Source: Enterococcus mundtii (GTDB taxonomy: Bacteria; Bacillota; Bacilli; Lactobacillales; Enterococcaceae). From it: a stretch of 64,000 bases of DNA. The stretch spans positions 1,557,501 to 1,621,500 of the forward strand of contig NZ_AP019810.1 of assembly GCF_013394305.1 (NCBI RefSeq), written 5' to 3'. The translations under genes were made by a program, and so were the position numbers. Shown here in pieces: positions 54,548-61,611 of this stretch; position 1 is the stretch's first letter, and each line of letters begins with the position of its first letter. The notes beneath the pieces are model-generated. The model had not been told where the DNA came from. It did no database searches and was given only the letters and a program-made list of their open reading frames with translations.

Positions 54548-54615
54548 GTTGAGGTTAACCACCTTTCAATTATATAATAGCATAAGCTGAAAAAAATTTG
54601 GAAGGGGTTTCGGAA

Positions 54616-55178
54616 ATAAAGATTGCAGTCTATTGCGGAGCAAGTAAAGGGAATTCTCCAGAATTTGAACGAGTAACGAGAAGCTTAGGTGAGTGGATCG
54701 GGAAGAATGAGTATCAGTTGGTTTATGGTGGTGGAAACGCTGGTTTGAAGGGGATTATTGCTGATTCAGTACTAGGATCTGGAGGGAAAGTGACAGGTAT
54801 CATGCCTGACTTTTTGGCAAAACGAGAACTAGCAAAAAAGATGGCACCTCTTTGATGATCGTGTCGTAGATGCACGAACGGAAACAAAAAATGATTGAAT
54901 TATCAGATGTCTATATTGCGTTACCAGGTGGCCCAGGAACCATCGAAGAAATTACTGAAGTAATCTCTTGGGGGAGGATCGGGCAACATGTCAATCCGTG
55001 TGTGTTAATGAATTACAAAGAATTTTTCGATCCTTTTAAGCAGCAGTATCAAGCCATGGTCAATCAAGGCTTTTTAACAAGAGAAGAGTTCGATAAAATT
55101 TTGTTTGCGGATGCGTTGACAGAAATTCAACCTTTTGTAGATCAGTATATCCCGCCTAAAATCAGGGAGTATAAATAA
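54616..55178 (+). pseudogene. LOG family protein (nucleotide 5'-monophosphate phosphoribohydrolase), inactivated
   Basis: The sequence spells a LOG/TIGR00730 protein of about 187 residues with three defects. (1) The normal start KIAVYCGASKG is preceded by ATA (54616) where ATG is expected, behind a GGAAGGGG site. (2) A six-A run at 54833-54838 has lost one base, shifting the frame, so the first part ends in KKMAPL; with seven A the text continues DGTSLMIVS. (3) A TAG stands at 54867 just before MHERKQKMIELSD. The catalytic motif PGGPGTIEEITE and the C-terminus are intact. Intact homologues cleave nucleoside monophosphates (cytokinin-type in plants and some bacteria). Confidence 0.85.
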
Positions 55179-55367: not shown

Positions 55368-55583
55368 ACAAATTTAACAGAAAAAGGTGATGAATCCGGC
55401 ATATCAGATGTTATATAATCAGTAACATGGGTATGACTGGAAGCGAGTAAATAAAATCAATTCAATAGGTAAAAAATTTAGCTGAGACACAGCTTTATTT
55501 AGCGTACCTATGTATTTGATTTTATTTTACTCGCATCTTCGCCTTATGCAGGGAAGCCGTAGAGTAAAATCTACGGCTTTTTT
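55368..55583 (+). ncRNA. Structured leader or small RNA with terminator, upstream of methyltransferase
   Basis: Between a consensus promoter and the methyltransferase gene lie, in order: an 11-codon frame (55390-55425, MNPAYQMLYNQ) with a crowded AAGGTG site; a long hairpin with arms GCGAGTAAATAAAATCAA (55443-55460) and TTGATTTTATTTTACTCGC (55516-55534), plus inner ATAGGTA/TACCTAT; and an intrinsic terminator AAGCCGTAGA/TCTACGGCTT with T run (55554-55583). This layout fits either an attenuator ruled by a leader peptide or a separate small RNA of about 215 bases. No known riboswitch class is recognised. The remaining gap 55179-55332 shows no gene. Confidence 0.6.
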
Positions 55584-55624
55584 CTTTTGTTCAAATTTAT
55601 AAAAAAATGAGGAGATGGAAAACA

Positions 55625-56452
55625 ATGATTGAAACACTTTTAAACAAACCAACACTTTATCAACAAACGAAAGGCGCATTTTGGGATGATCGTCACATCT
55701 CAAAACAAATGTTACAAGCACATCTTGACCCTGAATTTGAAGGCGCAAGTCGAAAAGCTGGGTTTATTGATGAATCTGTTCGTTGGATCAATACAGTAAT
55801 CCCGCCGAAAGCCTATCCAACGTTATTAGATATTGGCTGTGGTCCGGGAATCTATGCAGAAAAATTTAGTCGATTAGGGTATGAAGTAACGGGGCTTGAT
55901 TTTTCTAAGCGTTCGATAGCATATGCCAAAAAATCTGCGGAAGACCAACAGTTACCGATTACGTACCATTACGCAGATTATCTGACAATGGATTTAGATA
56001 AACAATACGATAGCATCACAATGATCTATTGTGACTTTGGAGCGTTATCAGCGAGTGATAGAAAAAGATTATTAGAAAATATTTATCAGCATCTAAAACC
56101 GACGGGGAAAGTTTTATTGGATGTTTTTTCGATGGCAAGTTATCAATCATTTGAAGAAAAGCGAGTTTGGGATACTTGTCCAGACGGAAGATTCTGGACA
56201 GATGAACCTCATGTAGCATTACAATATAATACAAAATACAACGAACATGTAACTTTAGAACAAACGACGATCCTTACCGATTATGAAAACAAAAATTATT
56301 ATCTATGGATGACGTATTTTACAAAAGAAACTCTGCAAAAAGAAATGGAAGCTGCTGGTTTTGTTGTTAGTGGGTTTTACGGGGATGTAAAAGGAAGTCC
56401 TTATGATGAGAACTCGCCGACACTAGCAGTAGTGTTAGAAAAGAAAGAATAA
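55625..56452 (+). CDS. Class I SAM-dependent methyltransferase
   Basis: A 275-residue enzyme with the SAM-binding motif I LLDIGCGPGIYAEKF (near residue 68), motif II region LGYEVTGLDFS and motif III LKPTGKVLLDVFS. It resembles small-molecule methyltransferases (ubiquinone/tetrapyrrole-like fold), not rRNA Erm enzymes, since the N-P-P-Y-type motif is absent. The start follows AGGAG at the right spacing; an upstream ATG contains the site. It is preceded by a structured leader and followed by repeat copy D. Whether it belongs to the neighbouring peptide cluster is unclear; it converges with the exporter gene. Confidence 0.88.
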   Translation: MIETLLNKPTLYQQTKGAFWDDRHISKQMLQAHLDPEFEGASRKAGFIDESVRWINTVIPPKAYPTLLDIGCGPGIYAEKFSRLGYEVTGLDFSKRSIAYAKKSAEDQQLPITYHYADYLTMDLDKQYDSITMIYCDFGALSASDRKRLLENIYQHLKPTGKVLLDVFSMASYQSFEEKRVWDTCPDGRFWTDEPHVALQYNTKYNEHVTLEQTTILTDYENKNYYLWMTYFTKETLQKEMEAAGFVVSGFYGDVKGSPYDENSPTLAVVLEKKE

Positions 56453-56489
56453 CAATTTTACTATTAGTCCAAAAGGAAAATATCTAGCG

Positions 56490-56552
56490 TAGATAAAAGC
56501 AGGAATCCACAAAAGTCGTTCATCGGATTTTTGTGGATTCTTACTTGTTTTT
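56490..56552 (+). repeat. Terminator-repeat element, copy D (short)
   Basis: TCTAGCGTAGATAAAAGCAG, then hairpin GAATCCACAAAA / TTTTGTGGATTC with loop GTCGTTCATCGGA and a T run. The loop-side sequence GTTCAT..GATTTTTGTG is shared with copy C, and the overall plan with copies A and B. It separates the converging methyltransferase and exporter genes. Confidence 0.75.
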
Positions 56553-56573
56553 TGAAGAGGACGGAGGATAGAT

Positions 56574-58169
56574 CTATACAATCGTTTCTACACGAGAAGA
56601 GATTTGAATGAACTTATTGGCAAAATTTTTATTTTCCTTGTCATGAGAGGTGAATAAAATGATTTTATTTTGTCTTACGTTCATGAGTGTGTCAAAGATG
56701 GCATCCGCAGAGTCTTTGTCGATACTACTCGTACTTTCATCTAGAATCCATATCCTACTGTCTTGGAGTATCATACGGGCAATGAACACGCGTTGTTTTT
56801 CGCCCCCCGACAGGTTTGCGCCATTATCAATGATTAAAGAATCCCAGTCTTTGTTTTTAAAAATCGGAGCAAGAAGTGTTGAATTTCTCAGCGCTTCTTT
56901 TTTTTCTTCTGAAATCGGTTGACCAAGAGTGATATTGTATTCAAGTGTATTTGAAAAGAGCAAAGTTGTTTGAGAAAGATAAGTGATTTGTTCTCTGACT
57001 TGCTTCCCATTCAACTGATCAAGAGGGAAGTCGTTGATATAGATACCATTACTTGCATAAAAGCTCAAGATGGCTTTTATCAGCGTCGATTTTCCAGAAC
57101 CTGAAGGGCCTTCGATATAACAAATATCTCCTAAATTCAGTGTTTCAGTCAATGACAAATGGATTCTTTTCGCATTTAATGCCATCGTGATTTGCGGATC
57201 GGTAAATTTGATGCTAGTGATTGGATCAATTGGTGTGCCGGATAAATCTTCTTGATGTAGTTCTAAGTTTTCTTGAACAAATTGTTGGTTTGCCACGACT
57301 GTTCGATAATCGACATTGATTTTGGATAAGTCAGAAAGGGAAGTGAAGAAAACGGGCATTAATATACTAACTACCATCATATTATTCAACTGGAGCTGTT
57401 GGTTATACACCAAGTAGCTGATCGTTATAAAAATAATATTTTGAGAAAGTTGGTTGATGAATGAGACAGTATAACTAGTGATTTGAGCAAATTTATTTGT
57501 TGCTGCCAAACTTGTGTACATTTTTTTGAGGGTTTTTGAAGTTAGTTGTTTGACAGTATCAAAGCTAGGTAACATTTTAAATTGTTCTGGATTACCCAAG
57601 AGCAAAATCAAATCTTTTTGAGCATTGGCATTTTCGTCTTGCATCGTTTTGATTCTTTGATTGAGTGTTTTATTGATAAAAAGATAAGAGAAGATGTTAA
57701 TAGGGATCAAAAGAAGCGTAATCAGGAAAATAGTTGCATCGAGAGTTAAAAATATACCTAACACGATAAGAATAGAGATGGCTGATTTCAGTACTAAAAA
57801 GAAGCTGGTCGTCATAAACATATAGGAGGTATCTACAATTCTGAAAATTCGAGTGACTAGATTACCAGATTCTAAATTGATATATTTCTCAAATTTCAAA
57901 GTATATATTTTGGCTAACAAATCGGAAATTGAGTTCAAATTGAATTTTTTTGCAAAATTTTCTCGGTAAATGATCAAACAAACCTGAAAAAGATAAGAGA
58001 GTGTCATGGCACCAATTATTAGGAAGATAATAGGAAAAATAGTGGTTGACTGATAACTATTGATACTATTAAGGATGAAGGGAGCAATCAAGGTGGTTAG
58101 TACGGTTACTAAAACTAATAACATAGATATAAATAGATATATGTAGCCTTTCTTTGAAAAAAAATTCAT
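56574..58169 (-). CDS. ABC exporter (membrane domain fused to ATPase), probable peptide exporter
   Basis: A 531-residue half-transporter. Six transmembrane segments (about 10-31, 43-66, 120-140, 143-165, 240-258, 268-290) are followed by an ABC ATPase with Walker A EGPSGSGKST, Q-loop YLSQTTLLFS, signature LSGGEKQRV and Walker B IWILDESTSSID, then the H-loop SHDKE. No N-terminal peptidase (C39) domain is present. It acts as a homodimer exporter. Codon use and AT content are more extreme than the neighbours. It is divergent from the precursor peptide and radical SAM gene, and is probably the exporter and self-protection for their product; that link rests on location. Confidence 0.88.
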   Translation of the reverse strand: MNFFSKKGYIYLFISMLLVLVTVLTTLIAPFILNSINSYQSTTIFPIIFLIIGAMTLSYLFQVCLIIYRENFAKKFNLNSISDLLAKIYTLKFEKYINLESGNLVTRIFRIVDTSYMFMTTSFFLVLKSAISILIVLGIFLTLDATIFLITLLLIPINIFSYLFINKTLNQRIKTMQDENANAQKDLILLLGNPEQFKMLPSFDTVKQLTSKTLKKMYTSLAATNKFAQITSYTVSFINQLSQNIIFITISYLVYNQQLQLNNMMVVSILMPVFFTSLSDLSKINVDYRTVVANQQFVQENLELHQEDLSGTPIDPITSIKFTDPQITMALNAKRIHLSLTETLNLGDICYIEGPSGSGKSTLIKAILSFYASNGIYINDFPLDQLNGKQVREQITYLSQTTLLFSNTLEYNITLGQPISEEKKEALRNSTLLAPIFKNKDWDSLIIDNGANLSGGEKQRVFIARMILQDSRIWILDESTSSIDKDSADAIFDTLMNVRQNKIILFTSHDKENKNFANKFIQISSRVETIV

Positions 58170-58312
58170 TTTCCATTACACTCCTTAAGTACGTGGTTGA
58201 CAAATCATTATAAAGAATATTATACTTTTATTAGGAAAAAAATGGAAAGGTTATTTTTCTCTTTTTTTCATAAATTTGTGAGTGTGTAAAGACAGAAAAA
58301 TTAGGTAGTTAC

Positions 58313-58341
58313 TTAACAGAATTTATGTTGTTTCGTATGCT
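58313..58341 (+). promoter_or_regulatory. Promoter of the precursor peptide gene
   Basis: TTAACA, 17-base spacer, TATGCT, about 45 bases before the small-peptide start. Two TATAAT sequences on the opposite strand near 58221-58236 probably serve the exporter gene. Confidence 0.6.
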
Positions 58342-58388
58342 CATGCTGATTTTTTGATATGGTTTGAAAACGTAAAGGAGGAATAGTA

Positions 58389-58475
58389 ATGTTCAAAAAA
58401 CCTGACTTGAAAAGAATTACAGGTACATACGCAGTTCCATGCAACTGTGGGATTATTGCTGGTCAAGGATCGTAA
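58389..58475 (+). CDS. Candidate RiPP precursor peptide, 28 residues, CNC core
   Basis: AAAGGAGG stands eight bases ahead of an ATG opening a 28-codon frame. The peptide has a short basic leader-like start (MFKKPDLKRITG) and a neutral, Gly-rich C-terminal part TYAVPCNCGIIAGQGS with its only two Cys separated by one Asn (Cys18, Cys20). It is followed at once by a terminator of the repeat family, and then by radical SAM/SPASM and PqqD-like genes. That is the classic layout of a small precursor made in excess over its modifying enzymes. Likely chemistry is Cys-based thioether bridging (sactipeptide or ranthipeptide type), but the sequence matches no precursor family I can name. Because of its size the frame could be spurious; context argues strongly otherwise. 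Confidence 0.78.
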   Translation: MFKKPDLKRITGTYAVPCNCGIIAGQGS

Positions 58476-58490
58476 ATAGAGATGAGACGA

Positions 58491-58577
58491 TGACAACATG
58501 TCTTACCTCAAGAAATAAGCTGAAGATTACGGAAATTGTTCATGCGATTTTTGTGACTTTCAGCTTGTTTTTTTGAA
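58491..58577 (+). repeat. Terminator-repeat element, copy C
   Basis: ACAACATGTCTTACCTCAAG and AAATA, then hairpin AGCTGAAGATTAC / GTGACTTTCAGCT with loop GGAAATTGTTCATGCGATTTTT and a run of seven T. Its tail (ACTTATTTTTGGTG, to about 58613) also matches copy A (TTTATTCGATTTTTGGTG). It ends the precursor transcript so that only read-through reaches the enzyme genes. Confidence 0.78.
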
Positions 58578-58588
58578 AGGGGTTTCAA

Positions 58589-58672
58589 ATGTTTGCTACT
58601 TATTTTTGGTGCAGAAAGTGGGCGCTCCCTTCGGTTTACCCTGCGAAAATGAATTTGTGGTTTAAAAAATGA
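58589..58672 (+). CDS. Possible 27-residue peptide frame before the radical SAM gene
   Basis: GAAAGGGG then ATG opens a 27-codon frame ending in TGA at 58670-58672. It is aromatic and basic (contains FWCRKWALP, SVYPAKMNLWFKK). It is in the same frame as the radical SAM gene, with only the TGA and three codons between. The first third overlaps the tail of repeat copy C, which suggests chance, but the ribosome binding site is good and the stop overlaps the next one (GAGGTG), as in a coupled leader peptide. Either a coupling peptide, a second precursor, or noise. Confidence 0.35.
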   Translation: MFATYFWCRKWALPSVYPAKMNLWFKK

Positions 58673-58681
58673 GGTGATTTT

Positions 58682-59890
58682 ATCCGAATCAAAGAGAATC
58701 TTCATGCCTATCGATTCAATGAACAATTTATTGTACATAATGTCCTACGTAGTACATGGATATTAGTTGATCAAGAAGAATTAAACAAAATAAAAAAGCA
58801 AGATTACAAACATCTACCAATGGCAACCCAGAAAAAGATGGATCTGTTTCAAATCCTTTTAGAAGACCCGATTGAAGTAGAAAAAACGGAGCATGGAATA
58901 CCAGAGACAGCTTATTTGGTTATGACCCATCAATGTAATTTGAAGTGTGTTTACTGCTATGCAGAAGCCAGTCCTGAAAAGGAATATGAGGATAGTTTAA
59001 ATTTTGTCGAATGGATCGACGTTCTCAATCAATTGAAGGATTGCGGTGTAAAGAAAATTATCTTTACTGGCGGTGAGGTTGGGTTAAGTAAGGATGCGCT
59101 AAAATATATCGATTATGCCAAAAAAATTGGTCTAACTATTGGTTTGATCACGAATGGGACTTTAGTGCGGAATGCAAAAGATGCAGCGTTTCTAGCTGAA
59201 AGATGTGCTTCGATCACCATCAGCTTAGATTCGATCGATCAAGTTGCAAATGATAAAAATAGAGGGAAAGGCTGCTATCGCATAGCAATGAGAGGGATTC
59301 AAAATCTATTAGACTTGAATTATCCAAATATTGCAGTCAATACGATCATTACCAATAATAATTTCAATAATATTGACGAAACGGTGGAATTTTTAAAGAA
59401 GAATAACATCAATTATAAATTAGGCGGATTCAGTGAACTAGGACGTGCAAAAATGGCAGAGATTTCTTTAACTGATAGTGAGAGAACAGAAATCGAGTTA
59501 AAACAAAAGAACAAAAATCGTTCACCATTTTTAAAACCTTTCACCATCAAAGAATCCTGTGGACTTGGCGTTGGAGAATTTGCAATCAATCCTGTTGGTG
59601 ATATATTTGCCTGTAAACTGTTAGAAACTGCTGACTACAAACTGGGAAATATTAGAGAAAAGCAACTTAGCGAGGTTTTTGGCGAAGAGAATATTGCTTT
59701 TATTCGCTCTCAAAGCATCAATCATTTAACAAAATGTAATGATTGTTCATTCCGTTACTTATGCGGTGGAGGATGTCGTGCACATCATTATTATGCAACC
59801 AATGATACCCAAGGTGTAGACGAAGTAGAGTGTAATTTGATCAAGGAAATCCTAAAGCATCAAATGGTTCGTAGCTGTACAAATGAATAA
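58682..59890 (+). CDS. Radical SAM/SPASM peptide-modifying enzyme
   Basis: A radical SAM enzyme of 402 residues if started at 58682, or 356 from the first ATG at 58820. The SAM-cluster motif is CNLKCVYC (CxxxCxxC), followed by the GGE motif FTGGEVGLS. The C-terminal SPASM domain has the full Cys set: CGLGVGEF, NPVGDIFACK, KCNDCSFRYLCGGGCR and a last Cys in EVECNLI, for two auxiliary [4Fe-4S] clusters. The in-frame extension before 58820 (IRIKENLHAYRFNEQFIVHN...) looks coding, and GAGGTG points at codon 58682, which is ATC, while the ATG at 58820 has no ribosome binding site. Hence a rare ATC start or a lost ATG. The enzyme most likely forms thioether or similar crosslinks on the 28-residue peptide. 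Confidence 0.9.
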   Translation: MRIKENLHAYRFNEQFIVHNVLRSTWILVDQEELNKIKKQDYKHLPMATQKKMDLFQILLEDPIEVEKTEHGIPETAYLVMTHQCNLKCVYCYAEASPEKEYEDSLNFVEWIDVLNQLKDCGVKKIIFTGGEVGLSKDALKYIDYAKKIGLTIGLITNGTLVRNAKDAAFLAERCASITISLDSIDQVANDKNRGKGCYRIAMRGIQNLLDLNYPNIAVNTIITNNNFNNIDETVEFLKKNNINYKLGGFSELGRAKMAEISLTDSERTEIELKQKNKNRSPFLKPFTIKESCGLGVGEFAINPVGDIFACKLLETADYKLGNIREKQLSEVFGEENIAFIRSQSINHLTKCNDCSFRYLCGGGCRAHHYYATNDTQGVDEVECNLIKEILKHQMVRSCTNE

Positions 59891-59907
59891 CGAAAAGAGT
59901 GGAAGAC

Positions 59908-60171
59908 ATGAAACTCAATGAGCACATCACTTATGAAAAAATGGGTAATGACTTATACATCATGGTCGAGGATGAACGTTATGTTTTAGACAATGACGTA
60001 GCAATTGATATATTTAATTTGTTAAAGGCTGAATCGACGAAAGAAAACATAAAAGCCTTTGTGCGAGACAAGTATCGTTTAGATCAAGAATTTACAGATG
60101 ATGAAAAAGATAGTTATGTAGAGGAATTTTTGACCGTACTTAAAATTAATGGAATTATGATTGGATCTTGA
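59908..60171 (+). CDS. PqqD-like RiPP recognition protein
   Basis: An 87-residue protein of the PqqD fold: three N-terminal strands (ITYEKMGNDLYIMVEDERYVLDN), then helices (VAIDIFNLLKAEST, IKAFVRDKYRL, DSYVEEFLTVLKINGIM). PqqD-like proteins are stand-alone RiPP recognition elements that hand the precursor leader to a radical SAM enzyme. It follows that enzyme by 17 bases with a GAGTGG site and a terminator of the repeat family behind. The start is placed at ATG 59908, not at a GTG three codons upstream. Confidence 0.85.
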   Translation: MKLNEHITYEKMGNDLYIMVEDERYVLDNDVAIDIFNLLKAESTKENIKAFVRDKYRLDQEFTDDEKDSYVEEFLTVLKINGIMIGS

Positions 60172-60175
60172 AGAT

Positions 60176-60260
60176 CGTTGAATCTAGCAAAATAAGCAGC
60201 AACCGATCAAATTTGATGGGTTGCTGCTTATTTTTTCGAGAGGAGACCGATTTGTTCTAC
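60176..60260 (+). repeat. Terminator-repeat element, copy E
   Basis: GTTGAATCTAGCAAAATAAG, then the hairpin AAGCAGCAACC / GGTTGCTGCTT with loop GATCAAATTTGATG, then TATTTTTTCGAGAGGAG and a tail with ACTCTCGTTTTTAGTG that recalls copy A's tail. It closes the peptide cluster. Confidence 0.7.
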
Positions 60261-60867
60261 TCTCGTTTTTAGTGATGCTGAAAGTAGCACGCCATTGACA
60301 CGTATGGACGAAAAGTACTAAAAACTACTTCCCCAAACAATTTTTAGTCCCGATTGTTTCATCCACAATAATTGTATTCAGGATAGCAGTCCTTCGTTCG
60401 TTTATCAATAATCTAATTTTTGATACAATATAAGATAACGAACCAATCTATATTGTATTACTGAGCTATCCATTATCCAAAGTATAACATCTTTTTCCTT
60501 CCGCTCTATTTATTATTTTTTCTCATATTAAAAAAATAGTATACTAAATCAATTTGTTTTTAGATTTGATAAATTATTGAGTTCACTCATAAAAAAATAT
60601 ATTTCAATCTCAAGATAGACTGGTCGAAAATGAATAACCAAGCTATCTTTTCTAAAACTACTAGTACAGAAATCAAAACAGTGTATATTTATCTGTGAGT
60701 AAAAAAGTTGCTTTTTCCTTTCTTTTAATGGATTATAAAAATAGATGTTTTTGTACTTTATTTACTCTTTTAAAAATTCAGATAAATCTTTTATTAGCAA
60801 TAAAATTAATACAGTTTTTTTTCTTTGTGTTATTCTTTTAATTGCATGTATAGACTGGAGGAAAAAT
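60261..60867. other. AT-rich gap before metN
   Basis: About 600 bases without a convincing gene. A long in-frame extension of metN exists from 60745 but starts without a ribosome binding site and is read as noise. A possible promoter (TTATCA, 16 bases, TACAAT near 60428) and a hairpin AAGATAG/CTATCTT near 60612-60650 are seen. No S-box, T-box or SAM riboswitch motif was found, so the control of metNIQ is not evident. Confidence 0.55.
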
Positions 60868-61611
60868 GTGATCGAGCTAGTAAATGTGTCGAAGCAGTAT
60901 GAAAAGACCAAGTCGTTGCATAAGATTAGTTTTACTGTAAAACAAGGGGAAGTGATCGGGATCGTTGGGAAAAGTGGTTCTGGGAAATCGACCTTGTTAC
61001 GTTTATTGAATTTGATGGAAACGCCTACTGAAGGCACAATCAAACTAAATGGTGTAGATGTTCAGTCATTATCAAAAAAAGAGCGCCGGCAGCAACAACA
61101 AAAAATAGGCATGATTTTTCAACATCATAACCTACTTGAAAATTTACGTGTTTATGAAAATGTTGCATTACCATTGAAGTTACAAAGGAAAAAAGAGCCT
61201 AAAAAAATCAATGATCTACTCGATTTTGTTGGCATGAGTCATAAAGCAGAAAGCTATCCAGTCAAACTTTCTGGCGGAGAAAGACAACGGGTTTCTATTG
61301 CAAGAGCGTTAAGTAGAGATCCGCATTTGTTACTTTGTGATGAAGCAACGAGTTCTTTAGATGAAGAAAATACAGAAAGTGTGGTTCGCTTATTACATAA
61401 AACACATGCCGAGTTTCAACCGACTATTTTTTTTGTTAGTCATGAACTGGAAACGGTCAAACGCTTATGTAAACGGATCTTAGTCATGGAAAATGGGCAT
61501 CTGATCGGTGAATTGATGAATGACCCAAAACAGTACGAGGAAGAGGAACTAACTTATTTTGAAAAAATAAAAAGGAGTTTGACTGATGAACTTGCCCACA
61601 GCATTGATTGA
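60868..61611 (+). CDS. metN: Methionine-type ABC importer, ATPase subunit
   Basis: A 247-residue ABC ATPase: Walker A GKSGSGKST, Q-loop IFQHHNLLENLRVYENVALPL, signature LSGGERQRV, Walker B LLLCDEATSSLD, H-loop VSHELET. It starts at GTG after GGAGGA. It is much shorter than typical MetN (about 340) because the C-terminal NIL methionine-sensing domain is missing, so it would lack trans-inhibition by methionine. It overlaps metI by 26 bases. Substrate (methionine or a related compound) is inferred from its permease and lipoprotein partners. Confidence 0.9.
   Translation: MIELVNVSKQYEKTKSLHKISFTVKQGEVIGIVGKSGSGKSTLLRLLNLMETPTEGTIKLNGVDVQSLSKKERRQQQQKIGMIFQHHNLLENLRVYENVALPLKLQRKKEPKKINDLLDFVGMSHKAESYPVKLSGGERQRVSIARALSRDPHLLLCDEATSSLDEENTESVVRLLHKTHAEFQPTIFFVSHELETVKRLCKRILVMENGHLIGELMNDPKQYEEEELTYFEKIKRSLTDELAHSID

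Follow-up and report, generated by a model that had tools for sequence, protein, structure and literature searches.

Here we report a compact gene cluster of Enterococcus mundtii that probably comprises a minimal set of genes for making a small sactipeptide, working in the manner of StsA/StsB/StsC. The cluster (positions 56574-60171) lies within a 64-kb stretch (the whole of the DNA analysed, hereafter the window) of a 3.3-Mb genome (G000), and consists of a divergent ATP-binding cassette (ABC) protein, a 28-aa peptide, a radical S-adenosylmethionine (radical SAM)/SPASM enzyme, and a PqqD-like protein (Table 1). It most likely represents a new, separate enterococcal branch of StsA/StsB/StsC-like sactipeptides. 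A preliminary description of the window had proposed a cluster for a ribosomally synthesized and post-translationally modified peptide (RiPP) with the same parts, each of which is present and correctly placed. The RiPP reading is borne out by the conservation of the peptide beside the enzyme, the RiPP recognition element (RRE) fold of the PqqD-like protein, and StsB as the best family model of the enzyme; the thioether chemistry it had also proposed is likely, given that model and the StsA-like layout of the precursor. Gene content, peptide–enzyme conservation, RRE fold, and best family model were all established computationally.

Precursor peptide, enzyme and recognition element

The precursor MFKKPDLKRITGTYAVPCNCGIIAGQGS (core TYAVPCNCGIIAGQGS) is encoded by 28 codons, as previously described; they lie on the forward strand behind a ribosome-binding site AAAGGAGG (58374-58381). 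A search with the enzyme matched 8 of 16 genomes of the genus at E <= 1e-60, and in all eight a peptide of the form MFxKPxLK...CxCG...GxGS lies directly upstream of the enzyme gene, namely MFKKPELKKIVGAYTAPCACGVISGQGS in G007 and G008, MFKKPELKKIVGAYLAPCSCGLFTGQGS in G015, MFKKPELKKVSGSVAAPCSCGLLSGQGS in G010, MFVKPVLKKVSGSILSPCSCGLLIGNGS in G009, MFVKPVLKKVSGRRLSLCSCGSLIGNGS in G014, and MFTKPVLKKISGNVLSPCSCGLLIGNGS in G005. In G007, G008, and G005 the longest open reading frame (ORF) opens farther upstream; in these and the g111 genomes, the peptide start was set at the Met nearest the motif, within the longer ORF.

A profile built from six enzymes recovered 9 of 398 genomes of the class at 1e-40, the own genome included. 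The eight further matches belong to one genus (G498, G532, and G562, 7.6e-82 to 8.8e-81; G522, 1.9e-70), to another (G612, G544, and G524, 4.0e-72 to 6.6e-72), and to G149 (E 5.6e-49). Seven of the eight have the order peptide, enzyme, PqqD-like gene, with CxCG peptides such as MKNYTTPKVKVVNPGVIEVDSCQCGAKNGAGA, MTNYKKPTFRKLESAAIAQAASCGCGCAFSVGGGYGSSC, and MAYVKPSMSLIDPVQALMAGCSCACGALAGSGGGGGEDKPE. A conserved CxCG peptide next to the enzyme, which the preliminary description had named as a check of its reading, is therefore found both in the genus and in the class. The 106 family genomes gave one further and much weaker enzyme match (G089, E 1.1e-31), matches at 1e-40 among 396 genomes of the order were confined to the genus (7/396), and among 398 phylum genomes the profile found the own genome alone at 1e-45. 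No plasmid record matched the enzyme at >=60% identity, and the two plasmid matches of the precursor were both at chance level.

Twelve precursors were aligned, leaving out the G008 peptide (identical to that of G007), the near-copies of G562, G544, and G524, and the peptide of L010. All 12 share P5, C18, C20, G21, G27, and an aromatic residue three positions before the proline (F in seven, Y in four, W in one), i.e., an aromatic-x-x-P leader followed by a CxCG/Gly-rich core. In the tail after CxCG, Gly25 is nearly invariant beside the invariant Gly27, and the core lacks a conserved Asp, Glu, or Thr. The middle residue of CxC varies (N, A, S, Q, G), both Cys and the Gly being invariant; of the CNC core previously expected to be conserved, the two Cys and the following Gly stand and the Asn does not. 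The full motif occurred in 11 of 4261 small ORFs from 22 chosen sources (the window and 21 loci; 350 kb), all 11 adjoining such enzymes, and in none of 46385 ORFs of Markov sequence; the corresponding counts for C.CG alone were 16/4261 vs 73/46385. The motif had been defined after the peptides had been inspected, and the StsA-like peptide of locus L042 (see below) is not among the 11, probably because its longest ORF exceeds the 80-aa limit. Conservation in 8/8 genus genomes and the motif count against Markov sequence led us to reject the peptide as a chance ORF. In a separate observation, an Acidobacteriota metagenome-assembled genome (L010, 522-4290) encodes a Cys/Gly-rich peptide, GGVCLCGSSSGGGAG, followed by a tandem pair of SPASM enzymes, and has an ABC-like gene (by eye); the L010 peptide has CxCG and lacks the leader motif.

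The enzyme has both features of a SPASM-type sactipeptide enzyme, a CxxxCxxC motif (CNLKCVYC) and auxiliary-cluster cysteines (Cys 293, 311, 352, 355, 361, 365, and 384), and matches Pfam Radical_SAM (E 1.2e-23) and SPASM (1.5e-7), in agreement with its earlier assignment. It is 98.5-99% identical to the enzyme of E. mundtii CVM N55263; a contig search gave three loci, of which E. mundtii alone is close. The protein is probably 402 aa long, starting at an AUC (58682) that the window has in common with G007 and G008, the three being E. mundtii-type lineages. After its stop at 58670 the frame has no ATG, GTG, or TTG until the ATG at 58820; homologues start exactly at the position of the ATC (ATG in G014 and G010, TTG in G015), which in the window, G007, and G008 is preceded by a strong Shine-Dalgarno sequence, GAGGTGAT, with a 7-nt spacer. 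An AUC start is the simplest reading. A start at ATG 58820 was rejected since the preceding 46 codons are conserved as protein: L7, Y10, H19, N20, W26, and E33 persist out to far relatives, and the changes (nonsynonymous/synonymous) are 0/2 vs G007 and 1/3 vs G008. These counts are small, and conservation of the start region relative to G015 and G014 provides the stronger evidence. Gene calling with the usual start codons shortens the radical SAM protein by 46 residues. The AlphaFold2 model of the enzyme reached a predicted local distance difference test score (pLDDT) of 53 with 6 alignment rows; comparison of the N-terminal region with the PqqD-like family (hhalign) gave a probability of 0.9%.

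The PqqD-like protein, the gene of which follows that of the enzyme in 8/8 genus clusters, is predicted to be a discrete RRE. Its match to Pfam PqqD is weak (15.9 bits, cut-off 23.4), as is a PqqD-family match in a separate sequence comparison (E 0.24), and the earlier assignment is backed by the predicted fold: the AlphaFold2 model (pLDDT 94.5) has TbiB1 bound to its leader peptide as best Foldseek match (E 2.4e-4, TMq 0.81), and the best matches are lasso-peptide RREs with bound leader, PqqD itself (3g2b) being a poor match (E 0.77). Between the window and G007, the gene has a synonymous divergence (dS) of 0.07 and a ratio of nonsynonymous to synonymous divergence (dN/dS) of 0.83 (3 synonymous, 11 nonsynonymous changes), which may reflect adaptation to another leader or relaxed constraint, the changes being too few to decide.

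Relationship to StsA/StsB/StsC and other sactipeptide systems

Among the NCBIfam models, StsB fits the enzyme best (199.7 bits), followed by mycofactocin MftC (120.1 bits), and it is also the best model for the enzymes of the three relatives scanned, out of seven at class level. StsB was reportedly defined by Precord and colleagues in 2023 in Streptomyces sparsogenes and is said to form sactionines and to be nearest to MftC overall, which agrees with this ranking. The enzyme search also recovered a true StsB (738 bits, cut-off 625) in Streptantibioticus cattleyicolor (L042), to which the window enzyme is 32.8% identical over 79% of the query. The peptide upstream of this StsB, MVSSWIKPDITSAEPQMLPPACSCGCGSGGGGGAGS, has the layout WIKP...PPACSCGCGSGGGGGAGS, i.e., WIKP...CSCG...GAGS, and is itself below the StsA cut-off (24.0 vs 42 bits). 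The precursors from enterococci and their relatives gave weak model matches, StsA and 'StsA-related CxC' among them. The precursor type that had appeared unfamiliar in the preliminary description thus matches the layout of StsA-type precursors.

A tree of 18 enzymes (unrooted; midpoint root) was built without the Tannerella fragment L011 and the interrupted G009 and G005 enzymes. In it a single branch (98/94) separates 14 sequences, namely those of the enterococci, those of the seven class-level genomes, and StsB, from 4 others. The closest solved structures by sequence are SkfB (positions 58-279, 79.2 bits), a sactisynthase, and 5wgg (best stretch 292-392, 78.2 bits), which we take to be CteB, where the RRE is fused to the enzyme; both act on other precursors.

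The cluster shares with StsA/StsB/StsC a precursor, a radical SAM/SPASM enzyme, and a discrete RRE, as well as an aromatic-x-K-P leader and a CxCG, Gly-rich core. It differs in that the window precursor has 28 aa, only two Cys, and hydrophobic residues between CxCG and GxGS, and in that enterococci have ABC and HTH_17 genes. NCBIfam NF045559 ('StsA-related sactipeptide RiPP', CxC; 87 positions) matched two enterococcal precursors weakly (16.1 and 13.7 bits), its cut-off of 75 bits being unreached. According to the available part of one study, StsC is a discrete RRE that binds the StsA leader through KPxWxxP; that part names RRE groups with W/Y/LxxP leader motifs and does not name the F of the enterococcal FxKP (PMC12710340).

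Two other sactipeptides from lactic acid bacteria bear comparison. Streptosactin of Streptococcus (GggA/GggB) is likewise small and has short Cys-to-Ser and Cys-to-Gly alpha-thioether rings (PMC8172795); it differs in its Rgg/SHP control, its cluster protease, and its Cys at 25 and 31, as opposed to one residue apart here. Neither an Rgg regulator nor a protease was found among the four genes of the cluster; the regulator of the relatives is HTH_17, and other neighbours were judged by eye only. Enteropeptin of Enterococcus cecorum (PMC13361665) is likewise a radical SAM sactipeptide from an enterococcus, but belongs to the KGR subfamily and has a thiomorpholine ring. Automated annotation has assigned sactipeptide clusters to E. 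mundtii QU25 (as cited), MP7-18, PM10, and QAUEM2808 (PMC8229437, PMC11840169, PMC6443856); these may correspond to the window cluster, the accessible portions of these reports give no precursor of the window type, and the sole tabulated sactipeptide ORF of QAUEM2808 has 85 aa and one Cys. No paper describing the window cluster was found in the open literature, as judged by title and beginning of the abstract.

Transport, regulation and variation of the locus

The ABC protein (531 aa) has a Walker A motif, LSGGE, and the Pfam domains ABC_membrane (from residue 15) and ABC_tran. In line with the preliminary description, Peptidase_C39 was not found among the listed Pfam families (25 of 28); there is also no room for it at the N-terminus. 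The gene adjoins 4/8 genus clusters, those of the window, G007 and G008 (86% identical), and G010 (62%), so that the ABC exporter cannot be called a standard part of the set, as the preliminary description had it. Near the class-level clusters the transport genes vary (major facilitator superfamily in L068, ABC genes in L069 and L070). Since these neighbours differ, this kind of cluster has no constant exporter; because the ABC gene is not constant, export through it in the window strain is an inference. Two further observations concern the class-level loci: ferredoxin-like genes, possible electron donors, lie between the PqqD-like gene and the ABC genes (L069 8848-9815, L070 6922-7203), and in L069 the same interval holds a sub-cut-off peptidase S24-like protein, a possible leader protease.

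Identity between the window and G007 is 92-99% up to 56396 and 88-99% from 58560, and mostly 62-85% between, with a 300-bp patch within the ABC gene (57212-57511) that is 94-96% identical. The dS values are 0.89 for the ABC gene and, on only 19 synonymous sites, 0.60 for the peptide, vs 0.14 for the enzyme and 0.18 for the flanking methyltransferase. The peptide and the ABC gene have probably been replaced together between E. mundtii lineages, and are therefore suggested to work together. ABC gene remnants were seen where the cluster seems lost: in L036 6282-6530 (G012), where just the 3' part of a window-type ABC gene (83 residues, 95% identical) is left at the first site, and in L039 6399-6521 (G004). 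A 42% relative of the ABC gene lies beside an HTH_17 gene in L034 5992-8013 (G002). At that locus a promoter-like sequence is followed by a palindrome half-site, and neither enzyme nor peptide could be recognised.

The clusters occupy two sites, with neighbouring genes named by eye. The first lies beside a methyltransferase (window, G007, G008, G015), and in the first three of these methionine-import-like ABC genes flank the cluster on its other side; the second (G010, G009, G014, G005) adjoins HTH_17 near ribF-like, dehydrogenase-like, or sugar-uptake-like genes. The window genome has a decayed second copy at the second site (L033 4307-6129; G000:C1, ~326-327.6 kb), which retains the promoter, the full palindrome, an intact PqqD-like ORF, and HTH_17, and has no recognisable peptide or enzyme.

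The promoter TTGACA-N18-TATACT agrees with the consensus at 11/12 positions. The promoter scan as a whole was at chance level (21 found vs 19.1 expected), and the call is therefore based on conservation in 7 aligned upstream regions. The left arm of the palindrome TAGGAAAA-N-TTTTCCTA stands behind the -10 element in 8/8 clusters; the complete palindrome is exact in five of them (G015, G010, G009, G014, G005) and at the decayed second locus of G000, whereas its right arm is degenerate in the window, G007, and G008. Exact copies occur 0-2 times per genus genome (reversed control 0-1 times), and only the fixed position behind the -10 is telling, as genome-wide the palindrome is about as rare as its control. 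A wider regulon was not supported by these counts; of four other occurrences inspected, three (L043, L057, L058) lie within coding frames, and one (L052, in G013, which has no regulator match) is intergenic, upstream of a phosphotransferase-system-like gene (named by eye). An HTH_17 regulator gene is found beside 6/8 genus clusters and not beside that of the window; in the window genome and in G015 a homologue lies at another location, and G002, G004, and G012 have the gene without the enzyme. This co-occurrence suggests that the HTH_17 protein may bind the palindrome.

Hairpins with T-runs fold at both ends of the cluster, where terminators had previously been noted, and between peptide and enzyme. 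The terminator pattern scan listed only that on the ABC side, with totals near chance (3 vs 1.9 expected). The region 58473-58690 folds with z -4.4 (0/200 shuffles fold as well), and the hairpin within it probably keeps the peptide mRNA in excess. An Rfam scan of 55400-61000 yielded no matches.

Table 1. Features of the E. mundtii cluster in window coordinates
Feature	Position	Strand	Basis and remarks
ABC exporter-like protein	56574..58169	-	Pfam domains, Walker A, LSGGE; candidate pump for export and/or self-protection
Promoter TTGACA-N18-TATACT of the peptide operon	58197..58226	+	Divergent intergenic region; conservation
Presumed operator, palindrome TAGGAAAA...TTTTCCTA	58232..58272		Directly 3' of the -10; conserved placement
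Precursor peptide MFKKPDLKRITGTYAVPCNCGIIAGQGS	58389..58475	+	FxxP leader motif, CxCG...GxGS core
Terminator-like hairpin with T-run, peptide/enzyme gap	58508..58576	+	Folding
Shine-Dalgarno sequence GAGGTGAT of the enzyme gene	58671..58678	+	7 nt between GAGG and ATC
StsB-like radical SAM/SPASM enzyme, 402 aa, probable AUC start	58682..59890	+	Family models, alignment
PqqD-like protein, predicted discrete RRE	59908..60171	+	Pfam (weak), AlphaFold2, Foldseek
Terminator-like hairpin, ABC side	56501..56542		Folding and pattern scan
Terminator-like hairpin 3' of the PqqD-like gene	60189..60234	+	Folding

The adjoining class I methyltransferase gene (55607-56452), with a distant likeness to daptide methyltransferases (54 bits, cut-off 175), was rejected as a cluster member because none was found at the G010, G009, G014, and G005 loci. 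At 54598-55178 a LOG-family-like gene (by eye) reads as two ORFs of 85 and 102 aa, possibly owing to a frameshift.

Proposed mechanism and alternative readings

We propose that transcription from the promoter with its palindromic operator would yield more transcript of the 28-aa precursor than of the enzyme, owing to the hairpin 3' of the peptide. The RRE would hold the precursor by its N-terminal FxKP motif and present the C-terminal half to the enzyme, which would abstract alpha-carbon hydrogen and join both Cys of CxCG as thioethers to the Gly-rich tail (loss of 2 or 4 H). The calculated monoisotopic mass of the full precursor is 2967.51, and would drop to 2965.50 or 2963.48 with these losses; a product of residues 13-28 lacking four H would give [M+2H]2+ 775.34. 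The leader would then be trimmed by a protease encoded elsewhere, and in the window strain the divergent ABC protein would export the product and perhaps protect the cell. Its most likely use would be competition with close relatives, an antibacterial role being a guess by analogy; streptosactin and enteropeptin A inhibit their own producers (PMC13361665).

Several findings weigh against a StsA/StsB/StsC-like sactipeptide. The enzyme scores far below the curated StsB cut-off (199.7 vs 625 bits), and the window peptide does not match the StsA model (cut-off 42 bits) up to E 10, the best enterococcal score being 16.0 (L015). In the tree, StsB sits on a long branch with odd make-up and there is no MftC or SkfB row, for which reason the kinship to StsB is drawn mainly from profile scores and precursors. 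The enzyme gene is broken in 2/8 clusters (an in-frame TAG stop in G009, frameshifts in G005), no CxCG peptide was found beside the farther enzymes of G149 and G089, no ABC gene was found beside the clusters of G015, G009, G014, and G005, and Pfam revealed no protease among the four cluster genes. Finally, 5wgg is nearly as close to the enzyme as SkfB among solved structures (78.2 vs 79.2 bits). This last point, together with a CxC spacing unlike that of classical hairpin sactipeptides, would suit a ranthipeptide, in which the cluster logic would be the same but the Cys would be linked at a beta or gamma carbon, as happens with the SCIFF and PapB enzymes. We regard this as quite improbable: the best family model is the sactisynthase StsB, the PapB model gives 97.3 bits vs a cut-off of 340, the precursors resemble StsA, and the core has no conserved Asp, Glu, or Thr.

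A signalling or intracellular product, with the mature peptide feeding back on the HTH_17 regulator and ABC export being secondary, is rather unlikely. The regulator gene accompanies more clusters than the ABC gene (6/8 vs 4/8), the promoter-proximal half-site is present in 8/8 and the full palindrome in 5/8, and three genomes keep the regulator gene without the enzyme; but the window cluster has neither the regulator gene beside it nor an intact right arm, no link between peptide and regulator is known, and joint replacement of peptide and ABC gene points to a pairing of peptide and transporter. The missing regulator gene, the worn palindrome, and the unusual AUC start could also indicate a decaying cluster that no longer works in the window strain, as could the broken enzymes of two relatives and the second copy, of which only the promoter, the palindrome, the PqqD-like gene, and the regulator gene are left. 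Decay is nevertheless very improbable, since the enzyme frame is open for 402 codons with dN/dS 0.06 vs G007, the motif residues are intact, and the AUC start is common to three lineages that keep the frame.

A sactipeptide with sactionine linkages is thus the likely product. A more far-reaching reading, possible but doubtful as a whole, combines two interlocking or fused alpha-thioether rings on a core of 11-12 residues with an exchangeable specificity cassette of peptide and ABC gene. The fused rings are suggested by the CxCG cysteines, one residue apart, and by the glycines of the tail, of which Gly27 is invariant and Gly25 nearly so. Such a topology would differ both from the nested hairpin and from the separate rings of streptosactin; the cassette may be swapped between E. 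mundtii lineages while enzyme and RRE stay.

This study links to the StsA/StsB/StsC kind an enterococcal cluster whose precursor we did not find described in the open literature. For a species that occurs in foods, it defines the precursor, the leader motif, and the masses to be expected. As a natural substrate on which to test StsB-like ring formation, a precursor of 28 aa with only two Cys is very small, and the joint replacement of peptide and exporter offers a handle on exporter–peptide pairing.

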